Origin: a virus
Virus record (IMG/VR): IMGVR_UViG_3300023227_000017
Coordinates: 1-31,426 of that record
Direction: 5' to 3' (one strand)
DNA length: 31,426 nt
Part shown: one piece after another, positions 15,389 through 21,582 of the stretch
How positions within the stretch are numbered: the stretch's first letter is position 1
Layout: each line of letters starts with the position of its first letter
Program-made: the position numbers and the translations under genes
The notes under the pieces: generated by a model
Seen by the model: the letters and a program-made list of their open reading frames with translations, nothing else
Database searches by the model: none
What the model was told of the DNA's origin: nothing

Positions 15389-15679
15389 ATGCAGCTAGAA
15401 AAAGGTACTTACTGTCCTTTATTAAAGAAAAAATGTATTGGGTTAAAATGTGCTTGGTTTGTTAGAGTCCAAGGATTTGATAAAAATACAGGGAAAGAAG
15501 TAGATGAATACAACTGTGCAATAGCTTTAATGCCCTTGTTACAGATAGAGAACTCAGGTACTCAAAGAGAAACGGGTGCAGCAGTAGAGTCATTTAGAAA
15601 CGAGATGGTAAAAGCTAATGAAGCTACCACAAGGTTATTAATGCAGGAACAGAACAAATTAATAGGAGATAAGAAATGA
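15389..15679 (+). CDS. Four-cysteine protein of the tail-fibre module
   Basis: This 96-residue protein has Cys9, Cys16, Cys21 and Cys43 in TYCPLLKKKCIGLKCAWFV and DEYNCAIALMP. These may bind zinc or an Fe-S cluster. A charged helix follows (GAAVESFRNEMVKANEATTR). Similar proteins often follow tail fibre genes in marine phages. It ends with a four-base overlap (ATGA) with the DUF4376 gene. Function is unknown; a fibre-assembly role is suggested by position. Confidence 0.55.
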   Translation: MQLEKGTYCPLLKKKCIGLKCAWFVRVQGFDKNTGKEVDEYNCAIALMPLLQIENSGTQRETGAAVESFRNEMVKANEATTRLLMQEQNKLIGDKK

Positions 15680-16671
15680 AATTAACGATCGTAGTAACAG
15701 ATAATGCGGCTTCTAAAAATGGAGTTGGGCATGGTGGCCTAGATTTTTCATCGTGCAATATACCAGTTACCGTTTGGGCATTACAATGGAATAATGACTC
15801 AGGGCATATTGAATATGAGGGCTTATCCCAGAATACTGTAATAACAGAGCTCCCAGCTTGGGCAACTGCCGTAGAAGAAGTATGGCAAACTGCGGAAGAT
15901 GCAGCTACAGCTGCTATTGAAGAAGAAGAAGTGCTAATAGAATCACAACAAGATGACCCTGCACTAGATGCTATTATGGCTCAGTACCCAACAGTAACAA
16001 AAGCCTACGCAGAAGTAGTAATTGCTAAAGTATCTTCTTTAGAGTTTGAGCTTAAAGTAATTAGTGGGTCTTATCTGTATGATAGAGATGTTCAAAATAC
16101 TATGCCATTTAAACCCATAGGAATAGCTTGTATTAATTTGGCAGGTTCTGGAGTAGCTGTTCTTAATAAAATGTCACTGTTTGCTAACGAAGCAGCTAAA
16201 TATGGTATCCCTATATTTTCATACCTTAATGATAAAAGCACACAAGATGCTTTAGCACAATACAGTGTAGACCACATGGAGCAAACTCAATATACTTATG
16301 ATGGAAATCCATTTATGTATACTGTGTGGACCCTTGAAAAGGAAAAACAAAAAGCAGATAAAGACATTAACTTAGATAGAATAGCTACTTTAGATGCAGG
16401 CTTTACATGGAATGGTAATACCTTTGATGCTGACAACTTAAGCAGGACTAACCTAGCAGGATATGTAGCTATGGTTGATGCAAGCATAAGTTTACCTGCT
16501 GATTTTACATGGCGTGATGTAGATAATAATGATATAGTTTTAACTAACGAAACAATTAAAGCCTTTGCAACAGCTATGAATACTTTTGTTAATGATACTT
16601 ATGTAGCCTCATGGGCGAGGAAAGTTAATGTCCGTGCAGCTTCAACTATTGATGGGATACGTGCAATTTAA
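15676..16671 (+). CDS. DUF4376-containing tail fibre-associated protein
   Basis: This protein has 331 residues. The N-terminal part (1-75, LTIVVTDNAASKNGVGHGGL; VTVWALQWNNDSGHIEYEG) resembles the small beta domain of tail-fibre assembly proteins. The C-terminal ~105 residues match DUF4376: INLDRIATLDAGFTWNGNTF, DADNLSRTNLAGYVAMVDAS, then FTWRDVDNNDIVLTNETIKA and AFATAMNTFVNDTY. DUF4376 is common in tail fibre and fibre-chaperone proteins. The gene follows the fibre and likely helps it fold or forms part of it. Its last 44 bases overlap the first desaturase gene. Confidence 0.7.
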   Translation: MKLTIVVTDNAASKNGVGHGGLDFSSCNIPVTVWALQWNNDSGHIEYEGLSQNTVITELPAWATAVEEVWQTAEDAATAAIEEEEVLIESQQDDPALDAIMAQYPTVTKAYAEVVIAKVSSLEFELKVISGSYLYDRDVQNTMPFKPIGIACINLAGSGVAVLNKMSLFANEAAKYGIPIFSYLNDKSTQDALAQYSVDHMEQTQYTYDGNPFMYTVWTLEKEKQKADKDINLDRIATLDAGFTWNGNTFDADNLSRTNLAGYVAMVDASISLPADFTWRDVDNNDIVLTNETIKAFATAMNTFVNDTYVASWARKVNVRAASTIDGIRAI

Positions 16672-17497
16672 TCTAAGTAATAATGTTAAAATAAAAGTAG
16701 TACAGGCTTTCGCATACCTAGGTGCAGCAGCCACGCTTATTTTTTGGTGGAATACGACTTTATTTATACTAGCAATGATATGGGGATGGCTTCTTACAGG
16801 TTTTGGCTCTAGTATGTCTCTCCATAAAATGTCTGCCCACCAGTCTTTCAAACCAAAGAATAGACTAATAAAAATAATACTTCTATTTATGGGTACCATT
16901 GTAAGTATGGGTAGTACTATTTATTGGTGTGATACACATAGATTACATCATGGAACATCAGATACAGATAAAGACCCTCATCCTCCTAATGGAACTTTAT
17001 GGAATAAAATAAAGATATGGTTTTATTACTTTGCTCCTTATCAGATTAATCCTATGAGAGTAAAGGATTTGATTGCAGACAAAGACCATATGTTTTTTCA
17101 TAGGCATTACTATAAAATAGTGTTAGGATGGATTGGACTACTAGCTTTAATAGATATTAAGATAGCAGCTTACTTTTATTGCGTTAGTATGTTGTATGTA
17201 TTTTTTGGTATTAGTTATATAACTGTAATAGCTCATGTACCTAAATTAGCAGTAAAAGGATATAGACTATTTAACTCCTCTGATTATACATATAACAGCC
17301 AACTTTTTGCATGGCTTTTATGGGGTGAAGGGTATCATAATACTCATCATAGTAATCCTAGATTATATAACTTAGCATTACTTCCTAATGAGTTTGATTA
17401 CTCTGCTAAAGTAATAGAATTTATAGGGGTACCTTATAAACAAAAGCCAAAAGCTTTTAACAAAATAGTAAAGGTTGAACATGGACATTACAGATAG
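16628..17497 (+). CDS. Membrane fatty acyl desaturase (delta-9 type), first copy
   Basis: This protein has 289 residues. It carries the three histidine boxes of the membrane-bound di-iron desaturases: HKMSAH (66-71), HRLHH (104-108, followed by SDTDKDPH) and HNTHH (237-241, in WGEGYHNTHHSNP). Hydrophobic helices lie at ~30-60, 82-100 and 165-203. The family introduces double bonds into acyl chains on CoA, lipid or ACP; the SCD/DesC-like boxes suggest delta-9 type. The start at 16628 has GAGGAAAG upstream, though it overlaps the DUF4376 gene by 44 bases; ATG 16652 is an alternative. The 17-base overlap with the ACP gene suggests linked function. Confidence 0.88.
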   Translation: MSVQLQLLMGYVQFNLSNNVKIKVVQAFAYLGAAATLIFWWNTTLFILAMIWGWLLTGFGSSMSLHKMSAHQSFKPKNRLIKIILLFMGTIVSMGSTIYWCDTHRLHHGTSDTDKDPHPPNGTLWNKIKIWFYYFAPYQINPMRVKDLIADKDHMFFHRHYYKIVLGWIGLLALIDIKIAAYFYCVSMLYVFFGISYITVIAHVPKLAVKGYRLFNSSDYTYNSQLFAWLLWGEGYHNTHHSNPRLYNLALLPNEFDYSAKVIEFIGVPYKQKPKAFNKIVKVEHGHYR

Positions 17498-17711
17498 AGT
17501 ATTAAAAATTATATCTGATGAAACAAAAACACCAATCAAAGATATAGATTTAGAAGCCGACATAAGAGATATGGGAATAGACTCTCTAGCTACAGTAGAA
17601 ATAATCATAGCAATAGAAGAAAAATTAGGAATTGAAATTCCTGAAGATAAGGCAGATGACCTGATAGTTATAAAGGATATAATAGCTTTATGCAAAACAT
17701 TGCATACATAA
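17481..17711 (+). CDS. Acyl carrier protein
   Basis: This 76-residue acidic protein has the ACP layout: helix 1 (ITDRVLKIISDETK), then the modification site in 'DMGIDSLATVEIIIAIEEKL' with Ser35 as the 4'-phosphopantetheine attachment residue, then GIEIPED and a last helix. Length is standard. I use the ATG at 17481 (AAGG six bases upstream) rather than the TTG at 17475. It overlaps both flanking desaturase genes, so all three are surely co-expressed. It needs a host phosphopantetheinyl transferase, as none is in the window. It likely carries the acyl chain on which the neighbours act. Confidence 0.9.
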   Translation: MDITDRVLKIISDETKTPIKDIDLEADIRDMGIDSLATVEIIIAIEEKLGIEIPEDKADDLIVIKDIIALCKTLHT

Positions 17712-18499
17712 ACCTTAGAATTTTATGGGTGTTTGTTCACTTAGGAGCTATTGCAGCAATAGCCTTAGCTATATTTTATGGTTATGGGTGGTGGCTTTTA
17801 TTATCATTTTTAATTTCTAGAGTATGGGTAATAGGTGGTATGAGTATGAGCCTACACAGATACTTTTCTCATCACCAATTTAAAACCACGACTTTTAAAC
17901 ATAAAGTATTATGTTTTCTAGCTACAATGGCAGCCCAGGGAAGTCCTATCGGTTGGGCAAATGTTCATAGACATCATCACAAGTACTCTGACCAAGAACT
18001 TGATATACACTCTCCTAAGGGAGGAGCTTGGCATGGAGCTTGGTGGATGCTTGAAAATCCTAAAATGTGGAGTCAAAAATTAGGAATGAAACTTACTACT
18101 ATTGATTTATTTAAAGATAAAGCAGTAGCCTTTGTTGACAAATGGTATTATGTTTTTTGGTTTAGTTTAATAGCAATTAGTTTTCTTATTGACTGGAAGA
18201 TTGCGTTATTTTTAGTATTAGCTCCTCCAGGTATAGGCTATATGTTGGATATGTATTTTGTTAATTACTTAACTCATACTGCATTGCTACCTAAAGGGTA
18301 TAGAAACTTTGATTCTACCGATACTACTTGGAACTATACTTGGGTTATATGGTTAGGAATACCAGATGGTTTACACCATAACCATCATTCAGAACCTTGG
18401 AAAATAGATGCGGCAATTAAAAAGGGTGAGTTTGATATAACAGCTTGGATAATTAATAAGTGGTTTGCTATAGAAGAAACAGAGATTAAAGTAAAGTGA
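17690..18499 (+). CDS. Membrane fatty acyl desaturase, second copy
   Basis: This protein has 269 residues. Histidine boxes: HRYFSH (56-61), HRHHH (93-97, followed by KYSDQELDIHSPKGG) and HHNHH (229-233). This is the delta-9 desaturase-type pattern with a di-iron centre. Hydrophobic helices lie at ~10-50, 72-90 and 152-190. It differs clearly from the first copy in box 2 and box 3, so it is not a recent duplicate. It overlaps the ACP gene by 22 bases. It may act on the product of the first desaturase, giving a diene or a triple bond (acetylenase-like), but this cannot be read from the boxes. Confidence 0.88.
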   Translation: MQNIAYINLRILWVFVHLGAIAAIALAIFYGYGWWLLLSFLISRVWVIGGMSMSLHRYFSHHQFKTTTFKHKVLCFLATMAAQGSPIGWANVHRHHHKYSDQELDIHSPKGGAWHGAWWMLENPKMWSQKLGMKLTTIDLFKDKAVAFVDKWYYVFWFSLIAISFLIDWKIALFLVLAPPGIGYMLDMYFVNYLTHTALLPKGYRNFDSTDTTWNYTWVIWLGIPDGLHHNHHSEPWKIDAAIKKGEFDITAWIINKWFAIEETEIKVK

Positions 18500-18512: not shown

Positions 18513-19034
18513 ATGGACTTACATAACTTAATGTTAGAACCAAATTTAGTAGAGACTCTTGATTTACAGTATGTAACAGCAGATAAGTATAGTCTTAAAG
18601 ACATTAATAAAGAAAGTTTAATAGAAGAAGTACTAGAAGATAAGAATATAAGGCTTACTAATGATGTAAATAGTTCTATTTATGAAGATACTTTATGGGA
18701 GCCAAAGCAAGAAGGGCTAAAAGTTTTAAACCAAATAAATTCTATTGTTAACCCATTAGGATTAAAGGTAACTGAAAAATGGGCTTTGATACATAGACCT
18801 TTTGAAAGCACTAACTCTCATAGGCACCCTGCGACAGAGTTTGGTTTTGTATACTACGTGAAGGCTCTACCTGGAGCAGGTAACTTGGTGTTTGAATTTG
18901 ATAATATGAATACTGTTATTCCCCCAGTAGAAAATACCCTGCTTATATTTCCAGGATGGTGTAAACACAAAGTAACAAGAAATTTAAGCAATGATACAAG
19001 GATAAGTCTTTCAGGAAATATTAATTATATATGA
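18513..19034 (+). CDS. Putative 2OG-Fe(II) oxygenase (2OG-FeII_Oxy_5-like)
   Basis: This protein has 173 residues. The C-terminal half fits the double-stranded beta-helix type used by a family of phage and bacterial 2-oxoglutarate oxygenases: NSHRHPATEFGFVYYVKALP, then GAGNLVFEF, ENTLLIFPGWCKHKV and TRISLSGNINY. Likely iron ligands are His103/His105 and His152, with Arg163 for 2-oxoglutarate. The N-terminal 80 residues are a helical cap. An AAGGG site lies only two bases before the ATG; ATG 18531 is an alternative. It overlaps the next gene at ATGA. Substrate unknown; hydroxylation of a lipid-linked or protein substrate is possible. Confidence 0.65.
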   Translation: MDLHNLMLEPNLVETLDLQYVTADKYSLKDINKESLIEEVLEDKNIRLTNDVNSSIYEDTLWEPKQEGLKVLNQINSIVNPLGLKVTEKWALIHRPFESTNSHRHPATEFGFVYYVKALPGAGNLVFEFDNMNTVIPPVENTLLIFPGWCKHKVTRNLSNDTRISLSGNINYI

Positions 19035-19558
19035 TATACGAATTTCCTAACTATATAGACTTAGAGTTGATTCAAGAAATAAAGAATCAAAGTAGAAAGC
19101 ATATTCAATTAGATAAGGCGGGTAGTTATAACAGGGAAGGAAATACTGTTGATATTACCAATACGCCTGAGTTAAAAGAGCTAGATAATAAAATACATAG
19201 CCTGATGGAAAGCATTCAAACGGAGTTGGTGCAACTAAGATTTAAACCTCAGTTTGATTCGGCAGATAGTGGGTATGAGTACCATAGATATAATGTAGGT
19301 GAGCAGTGCTTACATCACGCTGATGGCGAAGTAATGAATGGCTTGCTTAGGTATGCTTCGGTAATTATACATCTAAGCACTAACGATGGAGAGACTATCT
19401 TTCCACAACAAAACAGAAAGATTAAAACAGAAGAGGGTAAGGTTGTGATATTTCCACCTTATGGAGGCTTTGGACATTATGTGTCGCCATCAACCACACC
19501 AAGAGAGGTATTGGTTAGTTGGTTTGTTTATGTGGGGGTATCAATAAATAATGGATAA
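19031..19558 (+). CDS. Prolyl-4-hydroxylase-like 2OG-Fe(II) oxygenase
   Basis: This 175-residue protein has the complete motif: His96-x-Asp98 in QCLHHADGE, distal His149 in GGFGHYVSP and Arg158 in TPREVLVSWF, plus the strand GYEYHRYNVGE and the core GETIFPQQNRKIKTEEGKV. This is the P4H-type fold, which uses O2, Fe(II) and 2-oxoglutarate to hydroxylate proline or other C-H bonds. It overlaps the genes on both sides (ATGA upstream, eight bases downstream). Compared with bacterial P4H proteins it is short, with little N-terminal domain. Substrate unknown. Confidence 0.8.
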   Translation: MIYEFPNYIDLELIQEIKNQSRKHIQLDKAGSYNREGNTVDITNTPELKELDNKIHSLMESIQTELVQLRFKPQFDSADSGYEYHRYNVGEQCLHHADGEVMNGLLRYASVIIHLSTNDGETIFPQQNRKIKTEEGKVVIFPPYGGFGHYVSPSTTPREVLVSWFVYVGVSINNG

Positions 19559-20093
19559 AAAAATAGACAGCTTAGGAAGAGAAATAATAATATATGATGA
19601 TTTATTTCCTAAAGAATTTCATGAATACCTTTATGGTTATGTTAGGAATAAAAAAAATTATGCTCTTGGATTTGAAGATACTGCGGCAGTAGAAAGGCTA
19701 ACACATAAATATTATACGGCTGACTTTGGGGTAGAAGACTTAGAAGAGTCTAAATTGTTTGACCAACTTTATAAGACACCTATGGGCGAATTTATTAAAG
19801 ATAGGCAACTTACTAGAGCTACTATTAACACATCAGTTCCTAGTCAAACTAATTTTCCTCATACACATTTAAATAATTGGTCATTTATCTATTACCTAAA
19901 CTTGGACTGGAAGCCTGAGTGGGCAGGAGAAACGCTGTTCTACAATGATAAATGTGATGAAATAGAGTTTGCTTCTGTATACAAGCCTAACAGGGGGATA
20001 CTATTTGATGGGGCAATACCCCACACGTTAAGAACGCAGAGTATTACTGCTCCACACTATAGGTTCAGCCTAGCAATGTTTTTTGAAAAATAA
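19551..20093 (+). CDS. 2OG-Fe(II) oxygenase-like protein with HTH in place of HxD
   Basis: This protein has 180 residues. The fold signature is clear in NNWSFIYYLNLDWKPEWAGE, TLFYNDKCDEIEFASVYKPN, RGILFDGAIPHTLR and HYRFSLAMFFEK. The proximal ligands read His104-Thr-His106 instead of His-x-Asp; distal His158 and Arg171 are present. A replaced carboxylate can open an iron site, as in 2OG halogenases, or the alignment may shift. The start overlaps its neighbour by eight bases and the stop gives TAATG. Activity is likely but untested. Confidence 0.7.
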   Translation: MDKKIDSLGREIIIYDDLFPKEFHEYLYGYVRNKKNYALGFEDTAAVERLTHKYYTADFGVEDLEESKLFDQLYKTPMGEFIKDRQLTRATINTSVPSQTNFPHTHLNNWSFIYYLNLDWKPEWAGETLFYNDKCDEIEFASVYKPNRGILFDGAIPHTLRTQSITAPHYRFSLAMFFEK

Positions 20094-20629
20094 TGAATAA
20101 AAAGAAAATAATAGTCCTTGATGATGTTATAAGTATGGATTCAGTGCGTGCCTTCAGTGAAAATCATTTTAACGATATGCCATCCGAACAATCAAGATGG
20201 GTAGACAAAGGTAAACAACCCCAGTACATAACAGACCTTATTAAGGTAGCAGAGACCCATTTTGATTTGTCTACAGCTGTAGGGTATGAGTGGTGGACTC
20301 AAAATAATACTTATTCAAATAAAGCATGGCATTATGATGTAGATGAATCAAATAAAGAGAAATTAAAAAGCCCTTTATGCAGCATAATATATTATCCGTT
20401 TGTTGCCCATTTAAACGGGGGGTATTTATCTACGGAGGATGTGAAGATAAAGCCAAAGTCTAATAGAATGATTATAATAGCTCCTGAAATAATGCACAGA
20501 ATTGAAACTTATAATATAGAAGAAGCAACAAGGTGGTCATTTTTAATCAACCCTTGGACATATAAACCAGAAGCAGCAACGCCTTCATGGCATATAAAAG
20601 AAGAAAATCCAGAAAATATGGTAAAATAA
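20093..20629 (+). CDS. 2OG-Fe(II) oxygenase-like protein
   Basis: This 178-residue protein has motif His80-Tyr-Asp82 in KAWHYDVDE, distal His135 in APEIMHRIETY and Arg147 in EATRWSFLINPW. The strand region GYEWWTQNNTYSN and the core SIIYYPFVAHLNGGYLSTED match the double-stranded beta-helix. It is the last gene of the metabolic cassette; 24 bases later the lysis genes begin. It is preceded by a TAATG overlap with the previous oxygenase. Substrate unknown. Confidence 0.75.
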   Translation: MNKKKIIVLDDVISMDSVRAFSENHFNDMPSEQSRWVDKGKQPQYITDLIKVAETHFDLSTAVGYEWWTQNNTYSNKAWHYDVDESNKEKLKSPLCSIIYYPFVAHLNGGYLSTEDVKIKPKSNRMIIIAPEIMHRIETYNIEEATRWSFLINPWTYKPEAATPSWHIKEENPENMVK

Positions 20630-20653: not shown

Positions 20654-21136
20654 ATGTTATCTATATTATCAGCAGTATTAGGATTTGCTACATCCGGTCT
20701 ACCCAGTGTGCTGAAGTTCTTTGAGCAAAAAGGTGACCAAAAACATGAACAGTCTATGGCTAGGTTAGAAATAGACAGAACTATAGAAATGGCCAAGGCA
20801 GGTTATGCATCCCAAGAAAGAATTGAAGAGTTTAGAACCGATCAAGTGGAAATGGAAACCTATGCGGAAGAACGCGTTGCGTTATATAAACATGATACGC
20901 AGTTGGCGGAAGGTGCGTCTCGTTGGGTTATTAATCTCCGTGCTAGTGTTCGCCCCATTATCACCTATATTTTTGTTTTTATTCTTTTGGTGGTCGACTT
21001 TGTAGGTTTATACTGGGCTATTCAGTCTGGTCATAATTATGCAGAAGCTATGCAGATTGTATTCAGTGATGAAGAAATGGCTATTGTTGCATCTATTATA
21101 GGATTTTGGTTTGGGTCTAGACACTGGAATAGATAA
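20654..21136 (+). CDS. Holin, three-TM gene-transfer-agent type
   Basis: This protein has 160 residues. Hydrophobic segments lie at ~2-22, ~103-125 (YIFVFILLVVDFVGLY) and ~142-158 (MAIVASIIGFWFGSRHW). Between the first two is an 80-residue charged helix with KHEQSMARLEIDRTIEMAKA. This is the layout of 3TM holins first noted in gene transfer agents. Holins form lesions in the inner membrane and set lysis timing. The next gene, the endolysin, starts in a TAATG overlap, which supports the call. Confidence 0.75.
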   Translation: MLSILSAVLGFATSGLPSVLKFFEQKGDQKHEQSMARLEIDRTIEMAKAGYASQERIEEFRTDQVEMETYAEERVALYKHDTQLAEGASRWVINLRASVRPIITYIFVFILLVVDFVGLYWAIQSGHNYAEAMQIVFSDEEMAIVASIIGFWFGSRHWNR

Positions 21137-21582
21137 TGAAGGTAAGCGATGAAGGCATCAAACTTATTAAACACTTTGAGGGTGTACATAAAAAACCTTA
21201 TATCTGCCCTGCCGGCTATTGGACTATTGGCGTTGGTCATCTTATCAGTCGTGGTGCTAAGCTACCTTTTGAATGGGATAGGGTTTTATCACCTAGGGAA
21301 ATAGATGATTTACTTAGAAAAGACCTACGACGCTTCGAGTTGGGAGTACTTCGTTTGTTGGGTACTGTGCAACCAAACCAGTCTGAGTTTGATGCTCTTG
21401 TCAGTTTTAGCTTTAATCTTGGCTTGGGATGCTTTCAACGAAGTACAGTTCGCTCAGCGTTTATACGCGGTGATAAGAAAAGGTCTGGGGAAGTTCTTTT
21501 AAAATATCGTTTAGCTGGCGGAAGAGTGCTTCCGGGATTAGTAAGACGACGACAGGCAGAGCTCGCCTTATTAATGAGATAA
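21136..21582 (+). CDS. Endolysin, GH24 lysozyme
   Basis: This 148-residue protein has the catalytic triad of phage lysozymes: Glu15 in KHFEGVHKKPY, Cys24 and Thr30 in YICPAGYWTIGVGH, at the spacing E-8-C-5-T. In T4 lysozyme the middle residue is Asp; Cys is used in P1/R21-type enzymes. Later motifs NQSEFDALVSFSFNLGLG and LVRRRQAELALLM are typical. It cleaves the MurNAc-GlcNAc bonds of peptidoglycan. It has no N-terminal signal or SAR anchor, so release depends on the upstream holin. Confidence 0.9.
   Translation: MKVSDEGIKLIKHFEGVHKKPYICPAGYWTIGVGHLISRGAKLPFEWDRVLSPREIDDLLRKDLRRFELGVLRLLGTVQPNQSEFDALVSFSFNLGLGCFQRSTVRSAFIRGDKKRSGEVLLKYRLAGGRVLPGLVRRRQAELALLMR

Follow-up and report, generated by a model that had tools for sequence, protein, structure and literature searches.

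A conserved phage cassette of two membrane desaturases and an acyl carrier protein, a candidate module for acyl-chain desaturation

Why would a phage carry two membrane fatty-acid desaturases with an acyl carrier protein (ACP) between them? The question is raised by the virus record IMGVR_UViG_3300023227_000017, analysed here over its full 31,426 bp (the window). The record probably covers only part of the phage genome, leaving the remainder out of view, and the evidence on the trio described below comes entirely from metagenomic contigs. The locus and its flanking genes are listed in Table 1.

Table 1. Genes at the desaturase locus of the window. The Pfam scores of DES1, ACP and DES2 all exceed the gathering thresholds.
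Feature	Position	Strand	Profile match
DUF4376-domain protein, tail-fibre-associated, overlaps the start of DES1	15676..16671	+	PF14301 2.1e-15
DES1, membrane fatty-acid desaturase, 289 aa	16628..17497	+	PF00487 (FA_desaturase) 5.9e-17
ACP, 76 aa from ATG 17481, phosphopantetheine serine S35 in GIDSL	17481..17711	+	PF00550 (PP-binding) 2.8e-14
DES2, second membrane fatty-acid desaturase, 269 aa	17690..18499	+	PF00487 (FA_desaturase) 2.4e-14
Four 2OG-Fe(II) oxygenase-like genes	18513-19034, 19031-19558, 19551-20093, 20093-20629	+	PF13759/PF13640, PHROG 81, 61, 274
Phage lysozyme, closes the variable slot	21136..21582	+	PF00959 7.7e-33

The three genes are closely interlocked, with the ACP gene starting 17 nt inside DES1 and DES2 starting 22 nt inside the ACP gene, while the first ATG of DES1 lies 44 nt inside the preceding DUF4376 gene. 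For the ACP, the open reading frame listing gives a TTG start at 17475, which is possible, and the ATG at 17481 is conserved among relatives. The order DES1-ACP-DES2 is found in six further distinct viral contigs in our scans (L003, L005, L007, L009, L010 and L011/L012), where the genes again overlap or abut; in L011/L012 a third desaturase lies immediately downstream of DES2. Near-identical copies of the window come from two other samples (L001 and L002), and a truncated copy is also present (L006). Leaving the most distant relative aside, dN/dS against the window (Nei-Gojobori, with dS saturated in some pairs) is 0.04-0.08 for DES1, 0.07-0.21 for DES2 and 0.19-0.30 for the ACP. All three genes are under purifying selection, with the ACP evolving faster than DES1. 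With the order recurring in six contigs and dN/dS well below 1, the arrangement is beyond chance. The desaturase-ACP-desaturase operon described in an earlier note on this DNA is therefore upheld, with two full sets of His boxes, an intact DSL site, overlapping genes and a conserved order.

The phage context of the window is confirmed by genes for a portal, a major head protein, a virion protein and an endolysin. The capsid protein encoded there shares 64-70% identity with those of Pelagibacter phages HTVC023P and HTVC027P, phage DSL-LC04, phage 023Pt_psg01 and three Planktothrix/Synechococcus phage records. The trio occupies a variable slot that lies between the tail-fibre and lysis/stabilisation genes of HTVC023P-like podophages. 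In HTVC023P and 023Pt_psg01, neither of which gave a match when searched for desaturases, the corresponding slot is occupied by 2OG oxygenases. G+C is 0.32-0.37 across 16-21 kb of the window, as opposed to about 0.38-0.45 in the remainder. Because of this low G+C, the slot position and the oxygenases found there in desaturase-free phages, the trio looks like cargo of the variable slot. As to a bacterial source, a first genome scan found no relative, and a second returned generic desaturases only, at 26-32% identity and with no adjoining ACP.

The four 2OG-Fe(II) oxygenase-like genes downstream (18513-20629) are consecutive and mutually different. We considered them as pathway members and dropped the idea: their set and order vary among the trio contigs, and phages without desaturases carry 2OG genes in the corresponding slot. 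Since these genes differ from contig to contig, the conserved unit is the trio, and the oxygenases are probably slot cargo outside it. Upstream, a relative of the DUF4376 gene precedes DES1 in L013 as well as in the trio contigs. More generally, DES1 regularly comes after a gene of DUF4376 type, or a similar one associated with tail fibres, in the window, L013, L023, L024, L026 and L027 (the Pfam check covers the window copy only), and a shared insertion site behind such a gene in different phages is possible. A scan of the window for promoters and terminators gave signals no better than those in shuffled sequence.

DES1 and DES2 are about 33% identical to each other and have the His boxes HKMSAH/HRLHH/HNTHH and HRYFSH/HRHHH/HHNHH, respectively. 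DES1 keeps the nine SCD-type histidines (H66, H71, H104, H107, H108, H203, H237, H240 and H241), eight of which are invariant in an alignment of 69 sequences, with H237 present in at least 90%. DES2 has the corresponding SCD-type set, which is invariant in an alignment of 68 sequences except for H229, again present in at least 90%. The confident AlphaFold models (pLDDT 93.9 for DES1 and 94.5 for DES2) find significant Foldseek matches in the PDB to SCD1 only, with TM-scores of 0.70-0.72; the best is 4zyo in both cases (E 5e-10, TM 0.71 for DES1; E 5e-9, TM 0.72 for DES2). By profile, His boxes and the SCD-like fold of the models, both proteins belong to the membrane fatty-acid desaturase superfamily (PF00487). 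They share this fold and the nine His ligands with SCD1 (4zyo, 4ymk, 6wf2) and bacterial DesC, but are only about 20-25% identical to them and fall in a distinct clade.

A further difference concerns the position of SCD1 Asn265. The asparagine is kept in 8 of 8 window-type DES2 rows, as in 17 of 17 bacterial and 6 of 6 SCD/DesC rows, whereas all 12 DES1 rows have threonine. Judged from this substitution, the two enzymes may differ in chemistry. DES1 is a basic protein (28 K+R, 14 D+E).

The small protein between them is an acyl carrier protein by its PF00550 profile and its DSL serine, and the D-S-L of the GIDSL site is invariant in 15 viral ACPs. It is acidic (19 acidic and 9 basic residues). 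Its scores lie below the AcpP equivalog cut-offs (50.0 bits vs 70.45 for TIGR00517, 51 vs 71 for NF002148); by these curated cut-offs, it is not the housekeeping AcpP.

Desaturases proved far more numerous in viral contigs than the window alone would suggest, including tandem runs of three to seven or more. Where a clear ACP is also present, the two tend to be neighbours: in 21 of 23 near-distinct viral loci, recruited through their desaturases and not all independent, the ACP lies at most 300 bp from a desaturase, compared with 3.5 loci on average and a maximum of 10 in 5000 runs of random placement. The order is DES-DES-ACP in L024, L027/L028 and L207/L208, contigs with phage structural genes or a terminase, and DES-DES-gene-ACP in L023 and L026. 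In a 355-kb viral record with a terminase (L059, 4882-7103), a desaturase, an opposite-strand ACP, a second desaturase and an AcpS-type phosphopantetheinyl transferase are followed by tail-fibre genes. A 77-kb viral record, also with a terminase (L068, 1591-11418), has an ACP, a TauD-type dioxygenase, an SDR-like protein, a type III PKS/KAS III-like synthase, AcpS, a 2OG oxygenase and seven tandem desaturases, and looks like a phage biosynthetic gene cluster. L046 (70-10048), L083 and L049 combine a ketosynthase, AcpS and an ACP with seven to eleven desaturases and two or more rubrerythrin/ferritin-like proteins; no terminase was found in these three, so their viral status rests on IMG/VR.

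How, then, could the trio work? We consider it likely that it is an ACP-dependent double-desaturation module, with holo-ACP formation, loading and electrons left to the host. Host supply is proposed because searches of the window for a phosphopantetheinyl transferase, an AMP-ligase, a ketosynthase, a Fer2 ferredoxin, a rubredoxin and a 4HBT thioesterase found none, which bears out the earlier statement that an acyl-ACP ligase and a phosphopantetheinyl transferase are missing. The three genes would work together as a single functional unit, and their expression would probably coincide with that of the late genes. Host AcpS would supply the 4'-phosphopantetheine arm, and the acyl chain would come from the host fatty acid synthase or an acyl-ACP ligase. 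The dedicated ACP would then present this chain to the two SCD-fold di-iron membrane desaturases, with DES1 and DES2 introducing two unsaturations in turn and host ferredoxin or an equivalent providing the electrons. The likeliest fate of the di-unsaturated acyl-ACP would be transfer by host acyl-ACP-using acyltransferases into a membrane or envelope lipid, the main alternative being release as a small molecule.

Pointing to such a module are the order kept in six contigs, the purifying selection, the SCD fold with its nine histidines, the ACP serine and the proximity in 21 of 23 loci, together with the independent DES-ACP-DES and AcpS genes of L059, the DES-DES-ACP contigs and the L068 cluster. 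Counting against a strict module are viral contigs with DES1-like genes and no ACP, the faster evolution of the ACP relative to DES1, and the lack of redox, loading and release enzymes in the window. Because strong selection has kept the trio in several related viruses, these phages probably make an unusual unsaturated acyl chain on a carrier of their own, by a route similar to the known bacterial alkyne pathways but not one of them. The specialised chain on a phage ACP that the earlier note envisaged gains indirect support from other phages in which a phage-encoded AcpS, and sometimes a ketosynthase or type III PKS-like enzyme as well, accompanies the desaturases and ACP; the acetylenic chemistry it suggested gains none, and an acetylenic product, an LPS change or a small molecule is speculation.

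A broader reading, which we put forward tentatively, is that these loci belong to a phage-own branch of fatty-acid specialised metabolism that makes polyunsaturated, perhaps acetylenic or otherwise oxidised, chains produced by no known cellular family. On this view, desaturases acting on phage ACPs would have radiated specifically in viruses, with loci ranging from the minimal two-step cassette to clusters that add AcpS, a ketosynthase or type III PKS-like enzyme and up to nine or more desaturases. The trio, and those relatives that encode a phosphopantetheinyl transferase and synthases as well, suggest that dedicated acyl-ACP pathways operate in phages, which may thereby produce their own lipids or small molecules; the trio itself is a three-gene system open to direct expression and profiling.

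The phylogeny agrees with a viral grouping. In a tree of 117 rows, 82 viral rows and one bacterial row fall together across a short branch (SH-aLRT 91), with SCD, DesC, the alkyne enzymes, nearly all bacterial rows and four viral rows on the other side. Mid-depth branches are weak, and the sampling is biased by the choice of bacterial rows, which were picked for their similarity to DES2. DES1 and DES2 group with the mostly viral side of 83 rows, as viral fatty-acid desaturases (vFADs) would, although the vFAD sequences of PMC7300359 themselves lie outside the tree. A single viral clade was not rejected by the AU test on a reduced set (p 0.47), whereas a clade joining the DES1 rows (D1) with the DES2 rows (D2) was rejected (p 0.005); the pair thus did not arise by simple duplication inside the cassette.

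The current view of viral desaturases is that they aid membrane fluidity. Those of cyanophages were reportedly described in Roitman 2018. The vFADs of Arctic brine viruses, two of which have five copies each, resemble DES1 and DES2 in being phage-encoded SCD-fold desaturases with three His boxes, sometimes several per virus, and were interpreted as membrane lipid fluidity genes with no ACP coupling reported (PMC7300359). Applied here, that interpretation would have the desaturases act as auxiliary genes on lipid- or CoA-bound chains and the ACP boost host fatty-acid synthesis as a separate passenger, which we consider unlikely. It draws on this precedent and on the existence of each part alone: about seven distinct viral contigs encode a DES1-like desaturase (43-50% identical) but no ACP domain anywhere in the record, so this desaturase family does not strictly require an ACP, and prophage acpP/fabF/fabG sets, which share with the trio a phage-carried ACP in a fatty-acid context, consist of elongation genes and have no desaturase (PMC8224337). 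It does not account well for three genes that overlap strictly and keep their order, for an ACP adjoining desaturases in otherwise different phages, or for AcpS beside DES-ACP-DES. The earlier note had named grouping with ordinary lipid desaturases as the outcome that would tell against its proposal; in the tree, neither DES1 nor DES2 groups with SCD1 or DesC, and a D2+DesC/SCD clade is rejected with an AU p of 7e-38 (this clade test was for DES2 only).

We regard it as very improbable that a phage has acquired a genuine JamABC/TtuABC-type pathway for alkynes or polyynes and makes an acetylenic acyl-ACP with it. JamA/B/C, TtuA/B/C and the bacterial polyyne clusters, which include those for caryoynencin, cepacin and protegencin (PMC8406139), do encode membrane di-iron desaturases and a dedicated ACP side by side. 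Our references came from plasmids of Polaromonas (AMP-ligase, desaturase, ACP, second desaturase), Thalassospira (desaturase, ACP), Tistrella and Streptomyces, whose polyyne-type cluster even has the order desaturase-ACP-desaturase. The trio differs in being phage-borne, in lying apart in the tree and in its lack of partner enzymes. The ligase profile PF00501 is absent from the window, a possibly partial record, and from 19 of 20 viral relatives searched, and the three desaturases, thioesterase and rubredoxin of a polyyne cluster are matched by two desaturases and no PF00301 or PF03061 in the window. Kinship with JamB, TtuB and polyyne enzymes, the systems that the earlier note drew on, was rejected: the fetched JamB-type rows group separately, and AU tests on the reduced set reject both D1+alkyne (p 1.5e-5) and D2+alkyne (p 1.8e-6), the former in a fair test that included the L02x D2 rows adjoining that clade. 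The threonine of DES1 is suggestive, since one desaturase of the Streptomyces cluster has glycine at the Asn265 position, but we discarded it as a diagnosis of alkyne formation because it is not specific, being shared by six other viral rows and two L02x D2 rows.

That the ACP is a decoy, binding or titrating host ACP-dependent enzymes beside desaturases that are neighbouring cargo, is hardly credible: ACPs are hubs of host metabolism and the window has no ACP-loading enzyme, but the DSL serine is invariant across the viral ACPs, the adjacency is specifically to desaturases, and some phages also supply AcpS.

Phage desaturases (PMC7300359) and phage ACPs (PMC8224337) are each already known. 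Their coupling is apparently unreported, as a literature search of incomplete coverage, with most subscription journals outside it, found no report of a viral desaturase coupled to an ACP.

Several other genes were seen beside viral desaturases. A cupin-like gene that matched no Pfam family and was not found in the window adjoins the cassette in L005 (5338-5808), L007 (7860-8300), L009 (9854-10291), L013 (7155-7610) and L023 (7632-8096), and has weak relatives in other phages, some annotated as cysteine dioxygenase. In L038, L076 and L086, inspection by eye places desaturases among radical SAM-like, asparagine-synthase-like, Rieske-like and GNAT-like genes, and in L086 a weak AcpS-like gene (PF01648 0.0056) lies between the desaturases and the ACP. 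In two of the ACP-free phages, a gene resembling, by eye, a NeuD-type hexapeptide acyltransferase directly follows the DES1-like desaturase (L217, 5897-6595; L222, 6552-7259).
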